Of a stretch of DNA of 64,000 nt, positions 1,477-35,916 are shown piece after piece. The position numbers were made by a program, and so were the translations under genes. Origin of the DNA: Candidatus Hydrogenedentota bacterium (lineage in GTDB: Bacteria > Hydrogenedentota > Hydrogenedentia > Hydrogenedentales > SLHB01). Position 1 is the stretch's first letter. Each line of letters opens with the position of its first letter. The stretch is taken from the NCBI GenBank assembly GCA_029552745.1, contig JAKPDK010000182.1:1-64000 (forward strand). Direction: 5' to 3'. The notes below the pieces were generated by a model. That model made no database searches. It saw only the letters and a list, made by a program, of their open reading frames with translations, and was not told the origin of the DNA.

Positions 1477-3225
1477 ATGTTGTTTGTACTTTTGGCTTTG
1501 ACTGCCTCAGCTTCTAGCGGGGAGTGGAACGTTTTGGATTACGGTGCCGTGGGCGACGGTCAGACTGATTGTACGGCGCCGTTTCAAAAGGCGCTAGACG
1601 CCGCGGCGGCAGCGGGTGGCGGCACGGTGTTGGTGCCTGCGGGTCATTATCGGATCAACGGTGTATTGTCCATTCCGGGAGCCGTGACGTTGAAAGGCAC
1701 GTTTCATGTGCCGCCAACAGATCAACGGGAAGGGCGGCCAAAACTTGACGGGTCTGTGTTGCTCGCCTTTGCGGGTAGGGGTAATCCAGAAGGGGAACCG
1801 TTCATTCGGTTGGCAGGAAGTATGGCAACGATTGCCGGGTTCACCATCACCTACCCGGAATGGCGAGAGGAAGACGTACCCCCCGTTCCGTATCCCCCGA
1901 CGATTTATGCAAACGGCGTCGTGAACAATGGGATTTTAGACTGTCTGTTGTTGAACTCTTACGAGGGAATTGTTTTGCAGGATGCCGCTCGTTTTTTGGT
2001 GCGCAACGTGTATGGGTATCCGAGCAAGCGGGGGCTCTACGTAGACAGTTGTTATGATATTGGCAGAGTCGAGAACTGCCATTTTTGGCCATTTGGAACG
2101 GTGTATGATCCCAAAAAACCGTATGCGGCGTGGGTAAATCAGAACGGCGTGGCGTTTGAATTTGCCCGTACGGATTGGCAGTACGTAACGAATACCTTCT
2201 GTTTCGGTTACGGGGTAGGGTATAAGTTTTCGACAAGCAAGACCGGCAGTTGCAACGGCAATTTCGTAGGCATCGGCGCTGATTGCTGCACCCGTGCGGT
2301 GCTCGTAGATACGGCGCCAGGTGCGATCGACCTGCTCATTGTAAATGGAGAATTTGTGGGGAAATGGGGCAGTGCGGATTCTGTCGGCGTTGAGATTGTG
2401 GGCAAAAGTACGGGACGAGTGAGCCTCACCAACTGTGCCTTCTGGGGACCGCTGGATCGGTGCATTTGGCAACGTGCCCTTCAAGGGAATGTTGCGGCGA
2501 CGGCGTGCGGATTTCTTTCGTGGGATGAGGGCGGAGAAGACTCGCCAGCGGTGCAGATTGATGGTGGCAAGGCGATATTGCAAGGAAACTCCTTTGATCG
2601 GGACGGTTTGCATGTTCGTGTAGGAGATAAGGTGGATTCGGTGATATTGATAGGCAATCAAGCCGGCGATGGTTTCAACGTGGAGAATCATGCCGGAAAA
2701 CGCACCCAGATGGTGGCGAACGAAGCCGGGTTGATCACGTGGCCGCGGGGTTCCAAACGGAACTATCGAGTCGATATCGGCGCGCCGGGCGATAGCACAT
2801 TCCTGCGCGGGTTTTATGGCCGTGAGGGCGGCGGTTTTTGGGGCGAAGACGCCACGATGCGGTGGGGAGGCGTCAAACCGCGGCTGAGGCTTCCGGTGGA
2901 AAAGGGGAAGACCTACGTGATGAAACTCCATTTATTTATGCCGGAACACGCGGTTGCGCCCGACATGGGCATTTACTTGGGCGATATAAAGTTGGCTGAT
3001 CTTCCCTCCACGCGGGGTATTGCGGAGGTGGTTGCCACGATTCCCCCGCAGAAGAGTGACATGGTGGAGTTGCAACTGAGAGCCAAGGTATGGCGTCCTA
3101 GCGAAGTGGAAGGGACCGGAGACGCGCGTGCGCTTACGGTAGCTCTTCGACGCGTGGAAATGACCAGTGGGAGACCGCAATCGAAGGTGTACAGTGCCAA
3201 CGATGGGGAATGGAAACAGCGATAG
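1477..3225 (+). CDS. Secreted right-handed beta-helix protein, pectate lyase superfamily
   Basis: The 582-residue protein has a short hydrophobic N-terminus (residues 1-15) consistent with export. It opens with 'YGAVGDGQTD' at about residues 22-31, the hallmark start of Pectate_lyase_3-type parallel beta-helix proteins such as polygalacturonase-like and phage-tailspike-like enzymes. The next 350 residues are Asn/Gly-rich, irregular beta-helix coils ('VVNNGILDCLLLNSYEGIVL'). The last 140 residues, from about residue 440, look like a separate beta-sandwich, possibly carbohydrate-binding. An AAAGGCGG ribosome site precedes the ATG. The gene converges on the GH5-like gene ending at 3243. Substrate and lytic activity cannot be deduced; the fold assignment is firm, the enzyme activity is not. 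Confidence 0.8.
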   Translation: MLFVLLALTASASSGEWNVLDYGAVGDGQTDCTAPFQKALDAAAAAGGGTVLVPAGHYRINGVLSIPGAVTLKGTFHVPPTDQREGRPKLDGSVLLAFAGRGNPEGEPFIRLAGSMATIAGFTITYPEWREEDVPPVPYPPTIYANGVVNNGILDCLLLNSYEGIVLQDAARFLVRNVYGYPSKRGLYVDSCYDIGRVENCHFWPFGTVYDPKKPYAAWVNQNGVAFEFARTDWQYVTNTFCFGYGVGYKFSTSKTGSCNGNFVGIGADCCTRAVLVDTAPGAIDLLIVNGEFVGKWGSADSVGVEIVGKSTGRVSLTNCAFWGPLDRCIWQRALQGNVAATACGFLSWDEGGEDSPAVQIDGGKAILQGNSFDRDGLHVRVGDKVDSVILIGNQAGDGFNVENHAGKRTQMVANEAGLITWPRGSKRNYRVDIGAPGDSTFLRGFYGREGGGFWGEDATMRWGGVKPRLRLPVEKGKTYVMKLHLFMPEHAVAPDMGIYLGDIKLADLPSTRGIAEVVATIPPQKSDMVELQLRAKVWRPSEVEGTGDARALTVALRRVEMTSGRPQSKVYSANDGEWKQR

Positions 3226-3242
3226 AATGTGCCGAAACGCCG

Positions 3243-5342
3243 CTAGTGTTGGTGTATCCAGCGGTCGTATTCTGCGCGGATATCGTCGGCACTGACAAAC
3301 GGCTTCACAAGTAAGCGGGCTTTATAGCCGTACGTCTTCCCGACTACCGGATTTCTGATGACATACTGCCAGTCCCATGCGGGGCTATGTGGATCGGGGT
3401 TGTTATCTTCGTTGGTGATGAAATTCCAGAGGGCAAACCGGATGGAGTCGGTCTGGTCGAACATCATGACATAGGCAAGCGTGTCATCTGTTGTCGTTGG
3501 GTCGCCGTCTCCGTCCACTAGCCCGTAATAGAAAGGCAGCACGAACGTTTTGGACGGATCTTCCACAAGGTTCAGGGTGTCGGCGCCGTCTTCGTACGGA
3601 AGTGGAGCCGTGGCGCTATAGGCAATCGTGCCTTGTTCGAATCCCGTTGTTGTGTCTTCCCCGAATGTTACCCAGCCTTCGGAATCCTTGGAACGGCCAT
3701 AGAAATAGATTTTTCTATCTCGAGCGTGGTTTATGTAGCTTGCCCACATGAACACGACGTAACCCAGCGGGAACTCCTCGCGCGTGGGGGTACAGCGAAA
3801 CTCTATGTCGATGCTGTTTTCTTCGACGAGCGTGTATTCCATGCGGCATTCCATCCCCCAGGTGGAATTTTCGGCAGGCCAGCGCAATACGGCGGATCGC
3901 TCGGACGTTCTTTCAACGAGGCAGGGGTCTTTGCGTGGGCTAAATCGGGATCGGTCGCGGTCTTTGGTGGTGCCGTTGAAGATGTGCTCCAAGTTTAGGC
4001 CGACGGCGTCGCCGCGGAAGAGGTTTTCTCCGGGGTAGGCTTCATGACACAACGGGTTGAAGCCGTTGCCTTGTCTGTCTTGATTGGCGAGATTATCTAA
4101 CAACCTGCCGTTGAGGTTGTTTCCCGCCAACTCCGCGTGATGGGTGCCATCAGCCAACAAGGCGAGACGGCGGTTGGTTTGACCCAAGGCGTCAAGTTGC
4201 CAACTTCTATGATTTGTGAGCGAGATGTTGATATCGGCTTCTTGAGACGGCAGGTCGTAGTTCCACAACGCGGCAAGGGGCACGCCAGAGCGTTCGATGG
4301 CTGCCAGTTGGGCACAAATCTCACGGCGCGCTTTTGTCCTGCCGCCGTTCTTCTCGTCGTCGGGAGAGCCAAATTCGCCGACAAACAGGGCTTTCTGAGC
4401 CATGCGGGCAGCCTTTAAGGTTTCTTGAAGAATAGTCTCGTAGGAGATAAGCGGCGCACCGAAGCGCATGTGCCGATCAAATGGATACATATGCACCGAG
4501 ATCAGATTAAAGGGGTCTGGAGTAACATCTATCAGATTTTGTTGGAATTGTTCTTTGGAGTCTTGTTGCCACCCTTTCTTATGTCTTAAATGCTCTGCGG
4601 ATGGACGGGGTAGGCTGTGCCCTGTTGTGATCGGGCGTACTTTGTCATACTGACGTACGGCTTCAGCGAAGAGACGACTAGCCACCACGATCATGTCGTG
4701 TGTTAAATCATCGGCTTCGGAGCGACTGCTGGGGGTGCCGAGATCGGGGTATACCCAGGGGCGGTGATTTTCGGCGTTGGGCAGATCGGCTTCCAGACTG
4801 TATTCGTTTCCTAATTCCCATGCCCATATCGCGGGTGAGCCGGCATAGCGCGTGACAATATCGCGAACATATTGGCGCATGAACTGGATCGTTTTGCTTT
4901 CGGGATTTGCCCATTGATTGCGCGGCTCCTGTACGAGATCCGACACCGTGGCGTTGTACCAAAAGAGACTAGGTATCATGCCCATCTGATTTTCTTCCGC
5001 GGCGCGTATGACGTCGTCCAAAAGACGAAAATATTCCTCTTTGTTGTCCAAATAAAGACGCCAGTCTTTGGGCCAAAACCCGCATGCCATGAATCGCACA
5101 AAAGGTATGCCGCGCTTCTTTAACTCGGCGAAACCTTCTCGATAACTGGTGTCGCTAGGGTTTTCCAGTCTTCGACTGAACGCGCTGAAAAAGTTGATGC
5201 CGACGGCGCGTACCGGTTTGCCATCCAGAAGCAGGTTGCCAGCGTTGTCTACTTGAAGTCGTGGGGAGACAGATGGGGACGATTCGGGAGGTGGTATGTT
5301 GACACCTAACAGTGAGGCACAGATGAAGATCCAACTGTTCAT
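3243..5342 (-). CDS. GH5-like (cellulase-superfamily) glycoside hydrolase
   Basis: The 699-residue protein has a short hydrophobic N-terminus (MNSWIFICASLLGV) that may be a signal peptide or lipoprotein-like leader. Residues about 25-350 form a TIM-barrel hydrolase of the GH5/clan A type. 'NLLLDGKPVRAVGINFF' is the usual strand 1, 'WAWELGNEYS' supplies the putative acid/base Glu180 after strand 4, and 'LFVGEFGS' supplies the putative nucleophile Glu323 after strand 7. The remaining 350 residues are beta-rich and may be an accessory domain. The ATG overlaps the stop of rimO by four bases, so the two are probably co-transcribed, although functionally unrelated. The specific substrate (mannan, glucan or other) is not visible. 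Confidence 0.8.
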   Translation of the reverse strand: MNSWIFICASLLGVNIPPPESSPSVSPRLQVDNAGNLLLDGKPVRAVGINFFSAFSRRLENPSDTSYREGFAELKKRGIPFVRFMACGFWPKDWRLYLDNKEEYFRLLDDVIRAAEENQMGMIPSLFWYNATVSDLVQEPRNQWANPESKTIQFMRQYVRDIVTRYAGSPAIWAWELGNEYSLEADLPNAENHRPWVYPDLGTPSSRSEADDLTHDMIVVASRLFAEAVRQYDKVRPITTGHSLPRPSAEHLRHKKGWQQDSKEQFQQNLIDVTPDPFNLISVHMYPFDRHMRFGAPLISYETILQETLKAARMAQKALFVGEFGSPDDEKNGGRTKARREICAQLAAIERSGVPLAALWNYDLPSQEADINISLTNHRSWQLDALGQTNRRLALLADGTHHAELAGNNLNGRLLDNLANQDRQGNGFNPLCHEAYPGENLFRGDAVGLNLEHIFNGTTKDRDRSRFSPRKDPCLVERTSERSAVLRWPAENSTWGMECRMEYTLVEENSIDIEFRCTPTREEFPLGYVVFMWASYINHARDRKIYFYGRSKDSEGWVTFGEDTTTGFEQGTIAYSATAPLPYEDGADTLNLVEDPSKTFVLPFYYGLVDGDGDPTTTDDTLAYVMMFDQTDSIRFALWNFITNEDNNPDPHSPAWDWQYVIRNPVVGKTYGYKARLLVKPFVSADDIRAEYDRWIHQH

Positions 5343-6694
5343 GGTTTTTGCCTTTCCGATTTCTCTGAGGGCACAGCATAAATATCATACACATCGGCAT
5401 TTGTAATCTGAACGTCGATAAACTCCCCTAACGCCAACGGTTTCTCACTTGTTACATAGACGAGGCCGTCCACTTCAGGCGCTTCCGCGGCACTTCGTGT
5501 CACGTACATCTGCAAGTCTTTGTCGAAATCTTCCACCAGCACCTGTGTACGAGAGCCGACTCGGGACGCGCAGAACGCTGCCGAAATTTCGGCTTGCAGA
5601 CTCATGACGGTGTCCCAACGGCGTTGACGCGTGACACGGCGAACTTGTTTCGGGAAATTCGCTGCGGGTGTGCCTTCTTCGGGAGAATAAATGAACGCCC
5701 CTAGCCGTTCAAAACGCAGACGTTCCATCGCTTGTAGCATGTTTCGGTGTGCTCGCGGAGATTCGCCGGGAAAACCCACAAGCATGGTTGTGCGCAAGAC
5801 AATTCCGGGCATCGCCGAACGCACTTTGGAGACAACTTCTTCGGGATTGAGCTTGCCGAAGGGGCGCCCCATTCGTTCCAATACCTCGGGGTCGAAATGC
5901 TGAAATGGGATATCGAGATAAGGAACGATCTTGGGTTCCGTTGCCATCACCTCTAAAAGTGGGTCGGTTATACCGTGCGGATAACAATACAGCAGTCGGA
6001 TCCAAAAGGTTCCCGACAAGGAGCAGAGGTCTTTGAGTAAATGGGGCAGACGATACGATTTCCATTGGTCGATTCCGTAGCCGGCTATGTCCTGCGCGAC
6101 AAGGTTGAGTTCTCGAACGCCTTGAGCAAGTAGCTGCTGGGCTTCTCTCAAGAGGGTATGGGGAGGGATACTTTGGTAGGCGCCCTTCATGATCGGAATC
6201 GAGCAGAAGGTGCAGGCGTGGTTGCAGCCGTCCGCAATTTTTAGGAACGCATAGGGTCTGGTGTCCAGGCGTTGACGGGGCAGGGCGCCGCGGAAACTAG
6301 TGCGAGGAACTGGACGGACTAGGGTGTGATGTGTCTTTTCTGCAAGGATCATAGCCGCAAGCTGTTTCATTTGTCCGACGCCAACGATTCCGTCGATTTG
6401 GGGGACTTCTGTTGAGAGATCGTTGGCGTAGCGCTGGGACAGGCAACCCATAATGTACAACCTTTTAGGATTTCCCAAGGTTTCTTTCGCTTGCGCCAGC
6501 TCGAGGATTTTGTCGATAGATTCTACTTTCGCATCAGCGATGAACCCACAGGTGACGACCACGGCCGCATCCAACGGCATTGTTAAGGGTGGCTCAGCGA
6601 TGACCTCACAACCTTTTTCTGCTAATATACCGGCGAGATATTCCGCATCTACCGTGTTTTTGTCGCAGCCTAATATGAATATACCGATGACCAT
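5339..6694 (-). CDS. rimO: Ribosomal protein S12 (aspartate C3) methylthiotransferase RimO
   Basis: RimO is a cytoplasmic radical SAM enzyme that adds a methylthio group to an aspartate of ribosomal protein S12. The 451-residue protein has the full architecture. An N-terminal UPF0004 domain has cluster cysteines Cys10 ('ILGCDKN'), Cys49 and Cys84. A radical SAM domain carries CNHACTFC (Cys157, 161, 164), and a C-terminal TRAM domain starts at about residue 375. The 'LGCDKN' N-terminus and length match RimO better than MiaB. The start at 6694 is the first ATG of the frame and leaves about 80 bases to the divergent prepilin gene. Its stop overlaps the ATG of the downstream GH5-like gene. Confidence 0.92.
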   Translation of the reverse strand: MVIGIFILGCDKNTVDAEYLAGILAEKGCEVIAEPPLTMPLDAAVVVTCGFIADAKVESIDKILELAQAKETLGNPKRLYIMGCLSQRYANDLSTEVPQIDGIVGVGQMKQLAAMILAEKTHHTLVRPVPRTSFRGALPRQRLDTRPYAFLKIADGCNHACTFCSIPIMKGAYQSIPPHTLLREAQQLLAQGVRELNLVAQDIAGYGIDQWKSYRLPHLLKDLCSLSGTFWIRLLYCYPHGITDPLLEVMATEPKIVPYLDIPFQHFDPEVLERMGRPFGKLNPEEVVSKVRSAMPGIVLRTTMLVGFPGESPRAHRNMLQAMERLRFERLGAFIYSPEEGTPAANFPKQVRRVTRQRRWDTVMSLQAEISAAFCASRVGSRTQVLVEDFDKDLQMYVTRSAAEAPEVDGLVYVTSEKPLALGEFIDVQITNADVYDIYAVPSEKSERQKP

Positions 6695-26751: not shown

Positions 26752-29208
<2,457 letters not shown>

Positions 29209-29268
29209 TCCCAATTGGAACATGACAAGCTTGCATTGAGTATTCGACCCGTTGGAGCCCACTAACCC

Positions 29269-31797
29269 ATGGATGCACAAAAAGAACATATTGTTCCTGT
29301 AGCCATCGAGCAGGAGCTCAAGACGTCGTTTCTTGATTATTCGATGAGCGTGATCGTCAGCCGCGCATTGCCCGATGTGCGTGATGGCTTGAAACCGGTA
29401 CAGCGGCGCATTCTCTACACGATGCACGAATTGGGGCTCGTGCACAATAAAGGGTTTCGGAAGTCCGCGGCGGTCGTGGGCGATACGATGGGGAAATATC
29501 ATCCTCATGGGGACCAAGCCATCTATGACACGTTGGTGCGCATGGCGCAAGACTGGAGTTTTCGCTATCCGCTAATTGATGGTCAAGGGAACTTTGGTTC
29601 CGTCGACGGCGACAGCCCTGCGGCGATGCGGTATACGGAAGTGCGCATGGCGCCGATTACGGCGGAAATGCTTGCCGATATCGAAAAGCAGACCGTCGAT
29701 ATGCAGGACAACTACGACGGTCGTTTGCAGGAGCCAAAGGTGTTGCCGGCGGCGGTGCCGAACTTGCTCGTGAATGGCTCTCAAGGCATCGCAGTCGGCA
29801 TGGCGACCAGCTGCCCACCTCATAATTTGAATGAAGTATGCGACGCGATTGTGCACCTGATAGACAATCCGGATGCAGAGACTCGCGACTTGATGCGGTT
29901 CATTAAGGGACCGGATTTTCCCACGGGTGCCATTATTTACGGTACGGAGGGTCTTGCAGAGGCATATGCCACGGGTCGGGGCAAGGTGCAAGTACGGGCG
30001 CGTGCAATCACGGAATTCGACAAAGCTAGCGGCAAGGATCGCATTGTTATTACGGAAATCCCCTATCAGGTGAACAAATCGCGGTTGATCGAGAGCATCG
30101 CGGAACTCGTCAAAAACAAGGAAGTGGAAGGCATTACCGATCTCCGCGATGAATCTGATCGCGAAGGTATGCGTATAGTCATCGAGATACGCAAAGGGGA
30201 TGAACCCCAGGTGATTCTCAATCAATTGTACGCGCGAACCCAGCTTCAGGATACGTTCAGTATCCTGATGTTGGCGCTGGTCAACAACGTGCCGCGGGTG
30301 TTGTCACTGGTGGAGATGATTCGGTATTTCATCGAACACCGAATCGAGATCGTGCGGCGTCGTACGGAATATGACCTGCGCCAAGCCGAAGAACGATCCC
30401 ATATCGTTGAAGGGTTGCTACGCGCCATTGATCACATTGACGAAATTATCGCGATCATTCGGGCGTCAGCGGATGTCGACGTTGCCCGCGAGAATTTGAA
30501 AAATCGTTTTGGGTTTAGTGATGCCCAAGCCAATGCGATTCTTGCGATGCGGTTGCGGCGGTTGACGGGCCTGGAACGGGAGGAGCTGGAAAAAGAGTAC
30601 CAGGATTTGCTGAAGCAAATTGAACGCTTCAAGATGATCCTTTCGAGTCGTCGTACGATTCTTGCCGAAGTTCGCCGCGAAATTCTTGAGATAAAACAAA
30701 AATACGGTGATGACCGACGGACAGAGATTCTGGGGGAAGCGGGCGAGTTCCGTATTGAAGATTTTGTTGCTGACGAGGAAATGGTGGTGACGGTTTCGAA
30801 CGCCGGGTATATCAAACGGGTGCCCGTGAGTTCGTATCGTAAACAGCGACGCGGCGGACGGGGTGTCACGGGAGCGGATACAAAAGAAGAAGACTTCATT
30901 CGTGATTTGTTTGTGGCTTCGGCGCATCAGTTTCTCCTATTTTTCACCAACAAAGGTCAGGTGTACTGGCGGAAGGTGCACGAACTTCCGAAAGGGACGC
31001 GTACGGCGCGCGGACGGGCCATAGTGAACGTGCTGGACCTTAGCGGCGACGAACGTGTCACGGCATGTCTGCCTGTTCGAGATCTCAACGAGGAAGGCAA
31101 GTTTGTGTTCATGGTGACACGCAAAGGGATCGTGAAGAAGACGGAGCTCACAGCGTTCAGCAATCCGCGGTCGAAGGGTATCCGTGCGATCGATCTCGAA
31201 AAAGATGACGAACTGGTTGATATTCAAATCACGTCCGGTCGAGATAACATTCTCCTTGCTACGCGGCGCGGTATGGCGATTCGTTTTCCGGAAACCGATG
31301 TTCGACCCATGGGGCGGTCTGCCCAGGGCGTTATCGGAATTCGACTCGAGAAAGATGATTATGTCATAGGGACCTCGATTGCGCACGACGATATGACCGT
31401 GCTCAGTGTTACGGAAAATGGTTTTGGTAAACGCACGCGTGCGGAGGAGTACCGCGTGCAGCATCGTGGCGGGCACGGCATCATCAATATCAAGACGACG
31501 GACCGCAACGGCAATGTTGTGGGCATGCTCACGGTGGACGACGACGATGAAATCGTAGTGGTGAGCACGGACGGCGTCGTGATCCGCTTGGCGGTGCGCG
31601 ATATACGCACTATCGGCCGTAATACCCAAGGCGTGAAAATAATGGTACCTAATCCAGGAGCTAAGGTGAGCGCGGTGGCGCGGGCTGTCGGTGAGCGCAA
31701 GGAGGACAAGACCACGGGGGCGATGTCCGACAATGATTCCTCAACTGAAAGCGACGACGAACCCATCTCTGACGATAGCAGCGACCCGGATGCATAA
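29269..31797 (+). CDS. gyrA: DNA gyrase subunit A
   Basis: GyrA is the DNA-breakage subunit. The 842-residue protein has the catalytic Tyr122 in '[13 protein letters not shown]', the six-bladed C-terminal DNA-wrapping domain, and the gyrase-specific GyrA box in '[11 protein letters not shown]', which distinguishes it from ParC. In the quinolone-resistance region the sequence is '[17 protein letters not shown]', so residue 83 (same numbering as in E. coli) is Gln instead of the usual Ser/Thr/Ala, while Asp87 is conserved. The C-terminus is a Ser/Asp-rich acidic tail. It is co-directional with gyrB. Confidence 0.96.
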
Positions 31798-31946: not shown

Positions 31947-31983
31947 TCGGAGGGAAGTACGACTGGTTGCGAGGGTGCCGCGT

Positions 31984-33552
31984 ATGAAGACACGTCTCCT
32001 GGGCTTGCTGTACGTTGGGGCGATTTTGCTGTGTGTTTGTCTGTCGGCTTCCAGTGCGGGGGATTTCCGCTGGGTGGAAGTGGATGTCTCGTTGCGGCCG
32101 GACTATAAGGCGACGGTGACGTACAGCGTATGCTTGTGTTCTCTCGGAAACTTGCATGGTTTTTATTTTGAAGGTGTAGAAGAAGAACCAATTTTCGATA
32201 CTTCCTCCGCGGTTGCATGGTACAACAACAATCGTTCCAGCGTGCCGTTAGAGATCAAGCGCGTTGACTCGAAGACGTGGGACATTGTGTTGGCGGGAGG
32301 ACGGGCAATCGATTCGGGGGATGTGATTTACAAGTTTACGTATGCCGCGGACTTGGGCGCGTCGGGACATTTGGGGGTGACTCAATCTGAATTTGGTCCG
32401 CTGGTGTATTTTGACTGGGCGCCGGTTCAGTGGGACTCGCCTTTGGAACATTATACAGTGCGCGTCTATTACCCCATCGAATGCCAAGCGGGGGAAATGA
32501 CTATTGCAGACATGGATGCTTTTGGGTTTCGTACCGAACGTTTCATGAACGATCAGTGCCTGATTTCGTATTACGGCCAGGAACAGAACGGGAAGAACTG
32601 GCTTGCGGTGCGTTTGCATCGGGACACCGTTCCGCAAAGGTATCATTTCCGTATACAACAATACATCGACGCGAAATACTTTCAGCCGAGAGAAGTCTCA
32701 CGGGGGATCGGTGGGGCATTATCGCAGATGACTTCGACTCGTTTGTCTTACGTTCCCATTCTTCTCTTTGGGTTTATCGTTATTTTCTTACTCTTTTTCA
32801 TTGTCTTGACGAAACACCGGTCTTTGATCAAGGCGCGAGACGGGCTGGATGAGATTCAGTGGGCTCGGAATGACTGGATCCCGCCGCGCATTGAGGTTTC
32901 GTCTTTTCGTAAAGAAGGCAAAATTGCTGAGTTGGACATTTATGAGGCATGTATTCTTTGTGAGGTTCCTTTTGGGGACGTCTTGAGTGCGATTGTGACA
33001 AGGCTGGAGTCTCTCGGCGCGATTGAAGTAGTTTCTAAGAACCCGTTTCGTTCTCGCGCCTTGCAAGCACATCCGAACTTGCCGAACGAGTATGAGCAAG
33101 CGTTTTTTCAATTTGTCGAGGGAGACGGGGAATTAAGCGAATCGGAAATGGCGGAGATTTTTCGCACCCTCTGTGATAATTTGCAGCGGAAGGCATGGGA
33201 CAGCGACCTGGACGCCACCCGGGCGCATTATCAGGAAATGGTGGATCAGTTGTTTTCGCCAACGCTGGAGCAGCAGGAGGAGGTTGGCGAGCGGCGGGTG
33301 GAACCTGTGGTCGTTTTGGGACACAGTTGGCACCGTTACCCCTATTATTATCGCACTTCTTTCAGCAGTGATTTACATCGGATGACGTACTCCAGTTTCT
33401 TACAATCCAACTATTGTTTCCAGGGGTGTTTCACGCATTCTGCGTGTCACGATGCATGTCATTCTGCGTGTCATTCGGCTTGTCACAGCGCGTGTCATTC
33501 GGCTTGTCACTCTGCCTGTCACAGTGCCTGTGTCAGCGGGGGTTCCCATTGA
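31984..33552 (+). CDS. DUF2207-like membrane protein with C-terminal (Cys-His-Ser-Ala)n tail; candidate radical SAM substrate
   Basis: The 522-residue protein has a signal peptide (1-24), an extracytoplasmic beta-rich DUF2207-like domain (about 28-245), one membrane helix (about 255-277) and a cytoplasmic part (278-522). The cytoplasmic part ends in a Cys-rich tail: Cys478, Cys482, then Cys488, 492, 496, 500, 504, 508, 512 and 516 at exact four-residue spacing, as eight tetrads His-Ser/Asp-Ala-Cys, closing with VSGGSH. The His, Ser and Ala codons vary between repeats, so the pattern is kept at protein level. The predicted topology puts the tail in the cytoplasm, where the radical SAM/SPASM enzyme encoded 8 bases downstream could reach it. 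The ATG at 31984 is preferred over GTG at 31975. The DUF2207 assignment is by pattern. A metal-binding tail is the main alternative. Confidence 0.87.
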   Translation: MKTRLLGLLYVGAILLCVCLSASSAGDFRWVEVDVSLRPDYKATVTYSVCLCSLGNLHGFYFEGVEEEPIFDTSSAVAWYNNNRSSVPLEIKRVDSKTWDIVLAGGRAIDSGDVIYKFTYAADLGASGHLGVTQSEFGPLVYFDWAPVQWDSPLEHYTVRVYYPIECQAGEMTIADMDAFGFRTERFMNDQCLISYYGQEQNGKNWLAVRLHRDTVPQRYHFRIQQYIDAKYFQPREVSRGIGGALSQMTSTRLSYVPILLFGFIVIFLLFFIVLTKHRSLIKARDGLDEIQWARNDWIPPRIEVSSFRKEGKIAELDIYEACILCEVPFGDVLSAIVTRLESLGAIEVVSKNPFRSRALQAHPNLPNEYEQAFFQFVEGDGELSESEMAEIFRTLCDNLQRKAWDSDLDATRAHYQEMVDQLFSPTLEQQEEVGERRVEPVVVLGHSWHRYPYYYRTSFSSDLHRMTYSSFLQSNYCFQGCFTHSACHDACHSACHSACHSACHSACHSACHSACVSGGSH

Positions 33553-33560
33553 GGCGTGGT

Positions 33561-34937
33561 ATGAAATCGGGCAAGAACGGAGAATTGCCTTTGAAACGAG
33601 ATGAGCGCTATCCGCTTGAATGGATAGATGATTATGTCAAGTCAATTCGGCCGTTTGTCCATGTTCGGCGGCGGGATAACTTATTGATCAAGATACCCAA
33701 CGAGGCGTTCAAATTAAACGAAAGCGGTGTGCAGATTTTGTTGCGGCTTTTTTCAGGCGAACCGATCATGACCTTGTGGCGTTCCTTCGGGGGTGATGAG
33801 GTTGTTCAGCGGGATCTGTATCACTTCTTTATTGCCTTGAAACAGGCGCTTCAGGGATGTCTTAACGAACAGGCACCACCGCAGGGGGCCGTGATACAGC
33901 CATTTACGCTGGGGTTCAGTGCACTCCCCATTCTAAGTGAAGTCGCGCTTACGTACCGGTGCAACTTGCGGTGCCGTTTTTGCTACGCCGGGTGTGGGAA
34001 AGGCAGCGCGAGTGCTTTGCCGGAGATGAGTACCGATGAGGTGAAACGGGTGTTACGTTGTATTCGCGAGGACGCCGATGTGCCGAGCGTTAGTTTCACG
34101 GGCGGTGAGCCGACGCTTCGTGACGATCTCGAGCATCTTGTTACGTTTGCGCGGCGCGAGTTACAGATGCATGTGAATCTGATCACGAATGGGACGCGGA
34201 TTGACGCCCAGCGGGCAGTGGCGCTTGCGGAAGCGGGATTGAACAGTGCGCAAGTGAGTCTTGAAGCCCCGTGCGAGGAAGTGCATGACCGTTTGACGGG
34301 TGTGCCCGGTTCGTTTCTACGAGCGCTGGAATGTATCCGCTGTTTGCAGGAGGTTGGTATTCGGGTTCATACCAATACGACGCTCACCCGAGCCAACCTG
34401 GAGCATGCCTCGGCAATGCCAGCGTTTGTCCATTCCCTGGGCTTATCGCGGTTTTCGATGAATTTGATGATTCCTGCGGGTGTGGATAGACAGGACATTG
34501 CGCTTTTAAGTTTGCGGTACAGGGAGATCGGGGAACACGTGCTACGTATCAAAAAGGCGGCAGAACAGGAGCGCGTGGAGTTCATGTGGTACTCGCCGAC
34601 GCCGGTCTGCCTATTTAATCCGGTGGCGTACCGATTGGGTAATAAAGGCTGTGCTGCGTGTGACGGCTTGTTGTCGGTTTCGCCAACGGGGGGTGTATTG
34701 CCCTGTTCCAGCTGGCACGAACCCGTGGGCAATCTATTGGAAGAACCGTTTGAGGAGGTATGGCAGTCTGCGCGGGCTTGCATGATCCGTTCCAAAAGGG
34801 AGGCGCCGCGGGTTTGTCGTACGTGTGATGATTTTGCGGTATGTCAGGGTGCGTGTCCTTTGTATTGGCACGAGTTTGGTTGTGAGGAATTGGTAGGGCT
34901 GCAGGAGGGGCTTTGTCATGCTGTTGCCGGCACCTGA
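33561..34937 (+). CDS. Radical SAM/SPASM enzyme with N-terminal PqqD-like recognition region
   Basis: The 458-residue enzyme has three parts. Residues about 35-100 ('LLIKIPNEAFKLNESGVQIL') resemble PqqD, the RiPP recognition element. The radical SAM core has CNLRCRFC (Cys134, 138, 141) and 'SFTGGEPTL'. The SPASM-type C-terminus has Cys364, 367, 382, 419, 422, 428, 432 and probably 441 or 452 as auxiliary-cluster ligands. SPASM enzymes with a fused recognition domain typically modify ribosomal peptides, often making thioether or carbon-carbon cross-links. The ATG at 33561 has GAGG six bases upstream and lies 8 bases after the stop of the Cys-tail gene; an upstream extension to 33414 is only a shadow of that repeat. 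It overlaps the next gene by 20 bases. Confidence 0.92.
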   Translation: MKSGKNGELPLKRDERYPLEWIDDYVKSIRPFVHVRRRDNLLIKIPNEAFKLNESGVQILLRLFSGEPIMTLWRSFGGDEVVQRDLYHFFIALKQALQGCLNEQAPPQGAVIQPFTLGFSALPILSEVALTYRCNLRCRFCYAGCGKGSASALPEMSTDEVKRVLRCIREDADVPSVSFTGGEPTLRDDLEHLVTFARRELQMHVNLITNGTRIDAQRAVALAEAGLNSAQVSLEAPCEEVHDRLTGVPGSFLRALECIRCLQEVGIRVHTNTTLTRANLEHASAMPAFVHSLGLSRFSMNLMIPAGVDRQDIALLSLRYREIGEHVLRIKKAAEQERVEFMWYSPTPVCLFNPVAYRLGNKGCAACDGLLSVSPTGGVLPCSSWHEPVGNLLEEPFEEVWQSARACMIRSKREAPRVCRTCDDFAVCQGACPLYWHEFGCEELVGLQEGLCHAVAGT

Positions 34938-35916
34938 ACGACGTGGAGAACTGCATTTTTATGTGGCAAAAAGCCTGCCGTATGCCTTGCGTTTGGGCAT
35001 CGCCTTTTTTCTGATTACCGCCGGTTGGGGGGTGCAGTATTTCTTTTTAGAGCGAGGTCCGTGGTGGATTGGTTTGTTGGGAGTGGCTTTGGGGGTTGCG
35101 CTCTTGTTGGTTCGTGGGTTTGACAATACGGTGCCTCGGCGGGCGCCGTCGGAGGAGTGGAAACCGGTGCGCCGAAGCGAGGTGGAACGGATCATCGAAC
35201 TTAACGTGAAACAACGGAAATGGGACCAAGCGGCTATCGATATAACAAATGCGCGGGGCTTTTTTTCGCTGGTGCTGTTGACGATTCTGCTTGCGGTGAT
35301 AGGCTATTTTCTTTTGAAGAACATCATGCCAAGTATCCGGGATCGGCATCTTCATATTGTGGGGGCAAATCTTGCGGTGATGTTGTTGCCATTTTGGTTG
35401 ACAGGGATTCGGTTCACCCTGAAAAACGACCGCTTGATCGTGAAAGCCAAGATGCTCTTGAGGCTGGAGGATGTGTTCAACAGCTTGCTGCATCAGCCGG
35501 GCGAGGTTTTTCAATACCAGATGGTCACCGCCCCCGTGAAAAAAGGGCAAGGGGAAGTGCCTGCTGATATCAAGGCGATTGTGCAATTTCAAGAGGGTCC
35601 TTCGGAATTTTTGGGCATTCAAATGCAAATCGCCATCAACAGTGTACAGGGTTCCGATTATCCCTACTTTTATTGTGTGTTGGTGGCAAGGGCGGCTTTT
35701 GGGCGAATCACGGCGAAGCAGCTTCCGCCGCCACAGAAGAATGTCGTCTTGGAACCTTCCCAAGATGGAGACGTTGTGATTATGGTAATTCGCCAGAAAA
35801 CAACCAAGAATTCCGGATATCATACGAATCAAAAAGTGGCGCAGGCGATTTTCAACTATTCACTTCGTGCGGCACGGCAATTAATTAGTTCTTCCCCTGT
35901 GGCGGACAAGAAGTGA
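34918..35916 (+). CDS. Four-helix membrane protein of the Cys-tail/radical SAM operon
   Basis: I do not recognise a family. The 332-residue protein has two hydrophobic hairpins: helices at about 20-43 and 48-66, then about 114-134 and 147-166. After that comes a 160-residue soluble region of mixed alpha/beta ('RFTLKNDRLIVKAKMLLRLEDV', 'IKAIVQFQEGPSEFLGIQMQI'). It has no catalytic motif or Cys cluster. The start overlaps the radical SAM gene by 20 bases and has GGAGG upstream, so the two are translationally coupled. A role as a membrane partner, transporter-like factor or anchor for the modified protein is an inference from operon position only. Confidence 0.82.
   Translation: MLLPAPERRGELHFYVAKSLPYALRLGIAFFLITAGWGVQYFFLERGPWWIGLLGVALGVALLLVRGFDNTVPRRAPSEEWKPVRRSEVERIIELNVKQRKWDQAAIDITNARGFFSLVLLTILLAVIGYFLLKNIMPSIRDRHLHIVGANLAVMLLPFWLTGIRFTLKNDRLIVKAKMLLRLEDVFNSLLHQPGEVFQYQMVTAPVKKGQGEVPADIKAIVQFQEGPSEFLGIQMQIAINSVQGSDYPYFYCVLVARAAFGRITAKQLPPPQKNVVLEPSQDGDVVIMVIRQKTTKNSGYHTNQKVAQAIFNYSLRAARQLISSSPVADKK

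Follow-up and report, generated by a model that had tools for sequence, protein, structure and literature searches.

A three-gene bacterial cassette in which a Cys-His-Xaa-Ala-tailed membrane protein is the most likely substrate of the adjacent radical SAM/SPASM enzyme

Introduction

What is known of radical-SAM RiPP enzymes comes mostly from short peptides. The enzymes of PapA/PapB freyrasin and of other ranthipeptides and sactipeptides (SkfB, CteB, and RumMC) have a radical SAM domain, a SPASM/twitch domain, an N-terminal RRE, and Cys-motif targets. Known radical-SAM targets typically carry repeated Cys cores (PMC9413430), and family TIGR04117 (Cys-Xaa-Xaa-Xaa repeat radical SAM target) has a C-terminal CxxxCxxxC repeat that is annotated as a radical SAM target. 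Haft and Basu's His-Xaa-Ser (Hxs) system, named in PMC9062424, has a His/Ser repeat motif beside radical SAM enzymes. In the system of TIGR04222 (near_uncomplex) and MNIO (DUF692), a membrane protein whose C-terminal tail is Cys-rich and of low complexity is found beside a peptide-modifying metalloenzyme, and the tails are predicted to be periplasmic and are Ser/Gly-rich with interspersed Cys (PMC12452194). The DUF2207 (PF09972) family is composed of predicted membrane proteins with an extracytoplasmic N-terminal domain.

The locus described here was found in a 64,000-nt stretch of Hydrogenedentota DNA (referred to as the window), and it displayed the gene organization A–B–C (Table 1), with a repeat tail of Cys-His-Xaa-Ala (CHxA) type in membrane protein A, a radical SAM/SPASM enzyme as B, and a second membrane protein as C.

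Results

Gene A, the tailed membrane protein

The AlphaFold2 model of the extracytoplasmic beta domain of A matched ribophorin I/Ost1 and the N-domains of M1 aminopeptidases (Z 12–16, 2.7–3.6 Å, ~175 residues), matches that would denote fold likeness only; this domain alone was matched in the fold search with A, where the cytoplasmic part was not a separate query. Positive charges were located C-terminal to the transmembrane helix in most homologs, and the tail is predicted to be cytoplasmic and the beta domain to be outside, because A has an exported N-terminus and a single transmembrane helix. The modeled cytoplasmic part was composed of a helical domain, a linker, and then the tail. Among 25 relatives of A, DUF2207 matched 13 (best 6.3e-5; those listed singly scored 18–22.5 bits, under the gathering score of 24.4) and gave no match to the window copy, and TIGR04222 matched seven (best 2.7e-7, 30.5 bits), with 11.1 bits for the window copy and a cut-off of 43. 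The CHxA tail pattern was present in no Hydrogenedentota gene other than A.

Table 1. Features of the A–B–C locus, with positions in the window
Feature	Position	Strand	Basis
Gene A, 525-aa membrane protein: signal peptide, extracytoplasmic DUF2207-like domain, one transmembrane helix, cytoplasmic TIGR04222-like domain, and tail	31975..33552	+	ORF, 25-homolog alignment, model pLDDT 81
Extracytoplasmic beta domain of A, aa 29-235	32059..32679	+	AlphaFold2, pLDDT mostly 91-98
Transmembrane helix of A, aa 260-278 (about)	32752..32808	+	Hydropathy, KR count; model helix 261-295
Cytoplasmic domain region of A aligned to TIGR04222, aa 316-405	32920..33189	+	Profile alignment
Eight H-x-A-C units of A (HSAC, HDAC, then six HSAC)	33436..33531	+	Codon reading, unit comparison, homologous tails
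C-terminal VSGGSH of A	33532..33549	+	Tail comparison; S-G-G codons in relatives usually contain GGAGG
GAGG, a probable Shine-Dalgarno site ahead of ATG 33561 that shares bases with the stop codon of A	33551..33554	+	Sequence reading
Gene B, radical SAM/SPASM protein, presumed tail maturase	33561..34937	+	PF04055 2.8e-28, PF13186 6.6e-10
PqqD/RRE-like N-terminal region of B (approximate)	33660..33842	+	PF05402 in relatives
CX3CX2C radical SAM cluster motif of B, C135-C142 (counted from 33558)	33960..33983	+	Cys in 22/22 relatives
SPASM cysteines of B, CX12GX4C ... CX2CX5CX3C	34650..34856	+	Profile match, conserved in relatives
Gene C, 332-aa membrane protein with conserved GYHT motif, 20-nt overlap with the end of B	34918..35916	+	Adjoins B in most loci

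Codon usage and selection on the repeat tail

The repeat tail was in frame with the ORF of gene A, and thus it sits on the membrane protein and not, as an earlier note on this DNA had it, on the enzyme, which is encoded by the neighboring gene B; the repeat start at 33418 given in that note lies ~18 nt upstream of the first unit, within CFQGCFT. The codons were exactly as previously read: CAT/CAC for His, TCT, TCG, AGC, or AGT plus one GAT (Asp) for the x position, and GCG/GCA/GCT/GCC for Ala. Compared to the unit consensus, the eight units displayed 18 nucleotide changes and only one amino-acid change (Ser to Asp), while random placement of the same changes gave a mean of 11.6 amino-acid changes (sd 1.6), with one or fewer in 0/20,000 simulations. 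The units of the tail had pS 0.79 vs pN 0.14; among 66 homolog pairs, pN was 0.13 in the tail (an overestimate, since changes from TCN to AGY Ser pass via other residues) and 0.42 in the body, with tail pS being equal or higher. Mean pairwise identity was 0.93 in the core tail and 0.35 in the folded domains of A, and identity outside the tail went down to 26% among the relatives.

All ten Cys codons of the tail region (two in CFQGC and eight in the units) were TGT, for which the earlier note had offered codon preference or constraint. TGT accounted for 61% of Cys codons in the local genes (P ~0.007 for ten of ten), and the tail Cys codons of relatives were mixed TGT/TGC or exclusively TGC; the invariance was therefore read as local preference plus chance, with no conserved constraint.

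A total of 26 distinct homologous tails were found, and they contained seven (10 tails), eight (15 tails), or nine (one tail) CxxA units, with the register being kept and no frameshift; none of the relatives found had lost the register while retaining the enzyme. His was present in 198/199 units, and the constancy of Cys and Ala across tails was partly a product of how units were delimited. Residues at x were Ser/Asp/Asn/Ala/His/Gly/Glu; almost without exception, the final five units had Ser, and units six and seven counted from the end had Asp, Asn, or Ser. All 26 tails ended in CVSG followed by [GD][SGA][HRKE]. The control was composed of 13 unrelated CHxA arrays in viral contigs, which displayed a mean of 0.05 differences per 12-nt unit pair vs 3.0 in real tails. 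The claim that the pattern is under selection as amino acids, rather than being a freshly slipped DNA repeat, is supported because of (i) the synonymous/nonsynonymous counts, (ii) the 26 tails, which share one register and hardly differ in unit number, and (iii) the contrast with DNA-level repeats.

Other accounts and matches were also rejected. A TTG ORF (33414–34937) was gene B's frame extended back across the tail, and it was not taken as a conserved overlapping reading, because alternative frames were open in only 3–19 of 24 tails. Multihaem attachment via CX3CH was set aside on the reasoning that a four-residue unit spacing is too tight for separate haems, and no cytochrome family match was obtained. 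As for a viral or plasmid origin of the tail, the viral-contig matches were chance microsatellite-like arrays, and none were found in the plasmid collection. The apparent tail match in genome G978 (locus L129) was an unrelated CNSA array with the enzyme not nearby. The viral contigs that served as the slippage-repeat control (L032–L034) carried short ORFs with DNA-identical CHSA/CNSA arrays having no relation to the cassette.

DNA-level constraint at the tail end

The reading of conservation at the protein and not the DNA level held for the repeat and failed for the VSGG codons that follow it. GGAGG was found within the Ser-Gly-Gly codons in 17/24 loci, and the first Gly codon was GGA in 15/24 loci vs 15% in the remainder of those genes (P 2e-7, related loci not being independent); in the window, the Gly codons of VSGG were GGG GGT, and GAGG was present at the stop codon instead. 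The tail end of A probably doubles as the ribosome-binding site of B, because B starts a few bases past the stop of A in many loci. Translational coupling of A and B is apparent, at the level of sequence, from this position and from the Shine-Dalgarno site inside the end of A.

Genes B and C

Gene B exceeded the cut-offs of PF04055 (99.6 vs 29.5 bits) and PF13186 (39.6 vs 21.5 bits), and the last, seventh SPASM Cys was not identified in it. PF05402 (PqqD) matched 10/20 relatives of B (best 8.3e-4) and gave no match to the window copy, in which an RRE-like domain is thus only weakly indicated; when the N-terminal region of B was searched against PDB sequences, only chance matches came up. Against the NCBIfam families listed, B stayed below each curated cut-off. 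The solved structures nearest to B by sequence included SkfB, PqqE, and SuiB, and its likeness to these and to PapB would not fix the chemistry. In one relative (G147, L089 385–1761), B was split by one in-frame stop while the tail of A was intact, which could be a sequencing error or decay.

Gene C displayed the conserved motifs GYHT and YPYFYCVLVA, had no match in the family libraries searched, and gave a model (pLDDT 83) with no convincing fold match; the Myxococcota loci contained a divergent form of it (hhalign probability 98.7). Genes A and C have no curated family in the window and are likely annotated as hypothetical proteins.

Cassette order, co-occurrence, and distribution

Gene B was the next gene after A for 24/26 A genes, and the remaining two were extra copies in genomes that also held an A–B pair. 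One locus (L093, 4548–11487) had the tandem organization A–B–C–A–C with two tailed proteins and one enzyme, and another genome (G157) carried a second A on a different contig. A CHxA-tailed A and a high-scoring B were found in the same 6/68 Hydrogenedentota genomes (Fisher 9e-9), and both A and B in the same 8/282 genomes of a second phylum (Fisher 1e-15), with shared ancestry uncorrected in both cases. Among 128 neighbor ORFs, only an ABC-transporter-type ATPase family recurred (three loci) beyond B, C, and the divergent Myxococcota C. In the window, gyrB- and gyrA-like genes (26755–31797) lay directly upstream of the cassette, and the relatives compared had no such recurring neighbor.

The 26 tails were distributed in at least five phyla: Hydrogenedentota, Verrucomicrobiota, Myxococcota, Pseudomonadota (Sedimenticola and another), and a small phylum with A in 6/8 genomes. 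A copy of A cut by the contig end was found in a Spirochaetes MAG. The trees of A and B displayed the same main groups with phyla mixed inside them, e.g., a Verrucomicrobiota MAG within the Hydrogenedentota group, and Sedimenticola with a Myxococcota-search genome and a small-phylum member. This agreement suggests that the cassette has been transferred as a unit or that the placements are partly binning errors, as could apply to some cross-phylum placements given that the named relatives are all metagenome-assembled genomes.

Sister cassette

A sister group (six genomes in two phyla) had a related enzyme, radical SAM/SPASM with a PqqD-like domain, beside a DUF2207/TIGR04222-like membrane protein ending in CACACAGCACACACAGGGR; the loci were L104 (G006) 2965–6273, L105, L106, L107 (G194), L109 (G163), and L030 (G020). 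The tail CACACAGCACACACAGGGR was strictly conserved, with CACAGCACACACAGGGR in one locus; it contained Cys and no His and was quite different from CHxA. The PqqD-like domain of the sister enzyme scored above the gathering score of PF05402 (26.1 vs 23.4 bits), and no gene C was seen in the sister loci. Such a pairing would be expected if a Cys tail and its maturase evolve together, and it offers the best comparative argument for the tail as the presumed target of the enzyme.

Discussion

The tail is selected at the protein level with register and count fixed, A and B are strictly linked, and the cluster-binding cysteines of B are intact. The tail of A is most likely the substrate of B. It is quite probable that A, B, and C work as one cassette and that the (CHxA)7-9-CVSGG tail of A is post-translationally modified by B, RiPP-style but on a large membrane protein. 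One transmembrane helix would anchor A with the beta domain outside and the tail in the cytoplasm within reach of B; B would bind A via its RRE-like domain and modify the tail Cys residues unit by unit, and C may be the membrane partner of the finished tail. The maturation would be RiPP-like, although the cassette shows no evident protease or exporter. Cys is probably the modified residue, by thioether or another Cys-derived linkage at four-residue spacing, with thioethers as such being perhaps the product; the invariant Ala and His of the units would be candidate acceptors. The finished tail perhaps serves metal binding or redox sensing, by analogy with bufferins and TIGR04222 proteins (PMC12452194). 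An unlikely, bolder form of this account is that B builds a covalent Cys/His ligand ladder of 7–9 units on membrane-anchored A, i.e., a metal-holding or electron-carrying protein-derived cofactor and not a secreted peptide.

It is unlikely that the tail is instead an unmodified metal-binding helix, with Cys and His stripes at i, i+4 holding Zn, Cu, Fe, or an Fe-S cluster, and that B acts elsewhere on A or on a separate substrate. The 8–10 Cys and 7–9 His per tail in a fixed register, the confinement of variation to the x position, and the single helix (489–518) drawn with very low confidence by AlphaFold2 all suit such a helix, but it leaves unexplained that B accompanied CHxA-tailed A wherever the latter occurred among 350 genomes from two phyla and that the related enzyme of the sister system is paired with a quite different Cys tail that lacks His. 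That the tail serves B or C for recognition or docking, with the modified site elsewhere on A, is highly improbable: recognition sequences are likewise strongly conserved and the homolog alignment of A has conserved residues outside the tail too, but 7–9 tandem copies with 8–10 reactive Cys are rarely needed for docking, the folded parts of A average just 35% identity, and repeated Cys cores are what known radical-SAM targets typically have (PMC9413430). The notion of a functionless repeat that arose by DNA slippage or biased gene conversion and is kept uniform in the same way is barely credible, since the DNA identity of units 4/6 and 1/3 and the equal codon identity of distant relatives in register (0.430) and shifted (0.427) are set against highly diverse synonymous positions, chance arrays that are DNA-identical, and a unit count of 7–9 across several phyla, and the equal identities are a saturation outcome, with the close pair L051/L052 matching best in register (24/28).

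If B acts on the tail of A, as favored here, radical-SAM RiPP chemistry would extend to resident membrane proteins. The cassette, being compact, spread over several phyla, and provided with a regular Cys core (7–9 CHxA), would supply a clean substrate for studying enzyme action along repeats, and the sister cassette is a built-in comparison for it.

Radical-SAM targets with Cys repeats and membrane carriers with Cys tails are both known already, and no description of their combination, or of the CHxA-tail three-gene system, was found in the family libraries and papers searched, a coverage lying mostly outside subscription papers. The extracytoplasmic N-terminal domain of A is weakly DUF2207-like, but the proteins elsewhere in the second phylum whose match is confined to DUF2207 have no CHxA-type tail, unlike A. 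A repeat motif with His and Ser beside a radical SAM enzyme is shared with the Hxs system, but the Hxs motif as named has no Cys (PMC9062424), and B matched HxsC4 only weakly (96 bits vs a cut-off of 500). The C-terminal CxxxCxxxC repeat is shared with TIGR04117, of which the 98-position model has no counterpart of the membrane parts of A; three tails matched it weakly and by the repeat alone (best 0.043, 13.9 bits; cut-off 50). Compared to the TIGR04222 system, to which A displayed only weak, sub-cut-off similarity in its cytoplasmic domain, the cassette likewise has a Cys-tailed membrane protein beside a presumed peptide-modifying metalloenzyme, but (i) the enzyme is radical SAM/SPASM and not MNIO and (ii) the tail is a strict CHxA repeat predicted to be cytoplasmic, whereas TIGR04222 tails are of the Ser/Gly-rich, predicted periplasmic kind (PMC12452194). 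The ranthipeptide and sactipeptide systems come close to the cassette in the radical SAM and SPASM domains of the enzyme, in a putative RRE-like N-terminal region, and in presumed Cys-motif targets; B scored 74 bits against the PapB family (cut-off 340), the residue four after each Cys is another Cys in the A tail and not Asp, and their precursors are short peptides, while the carrier here is a 525-aa membrane protein.
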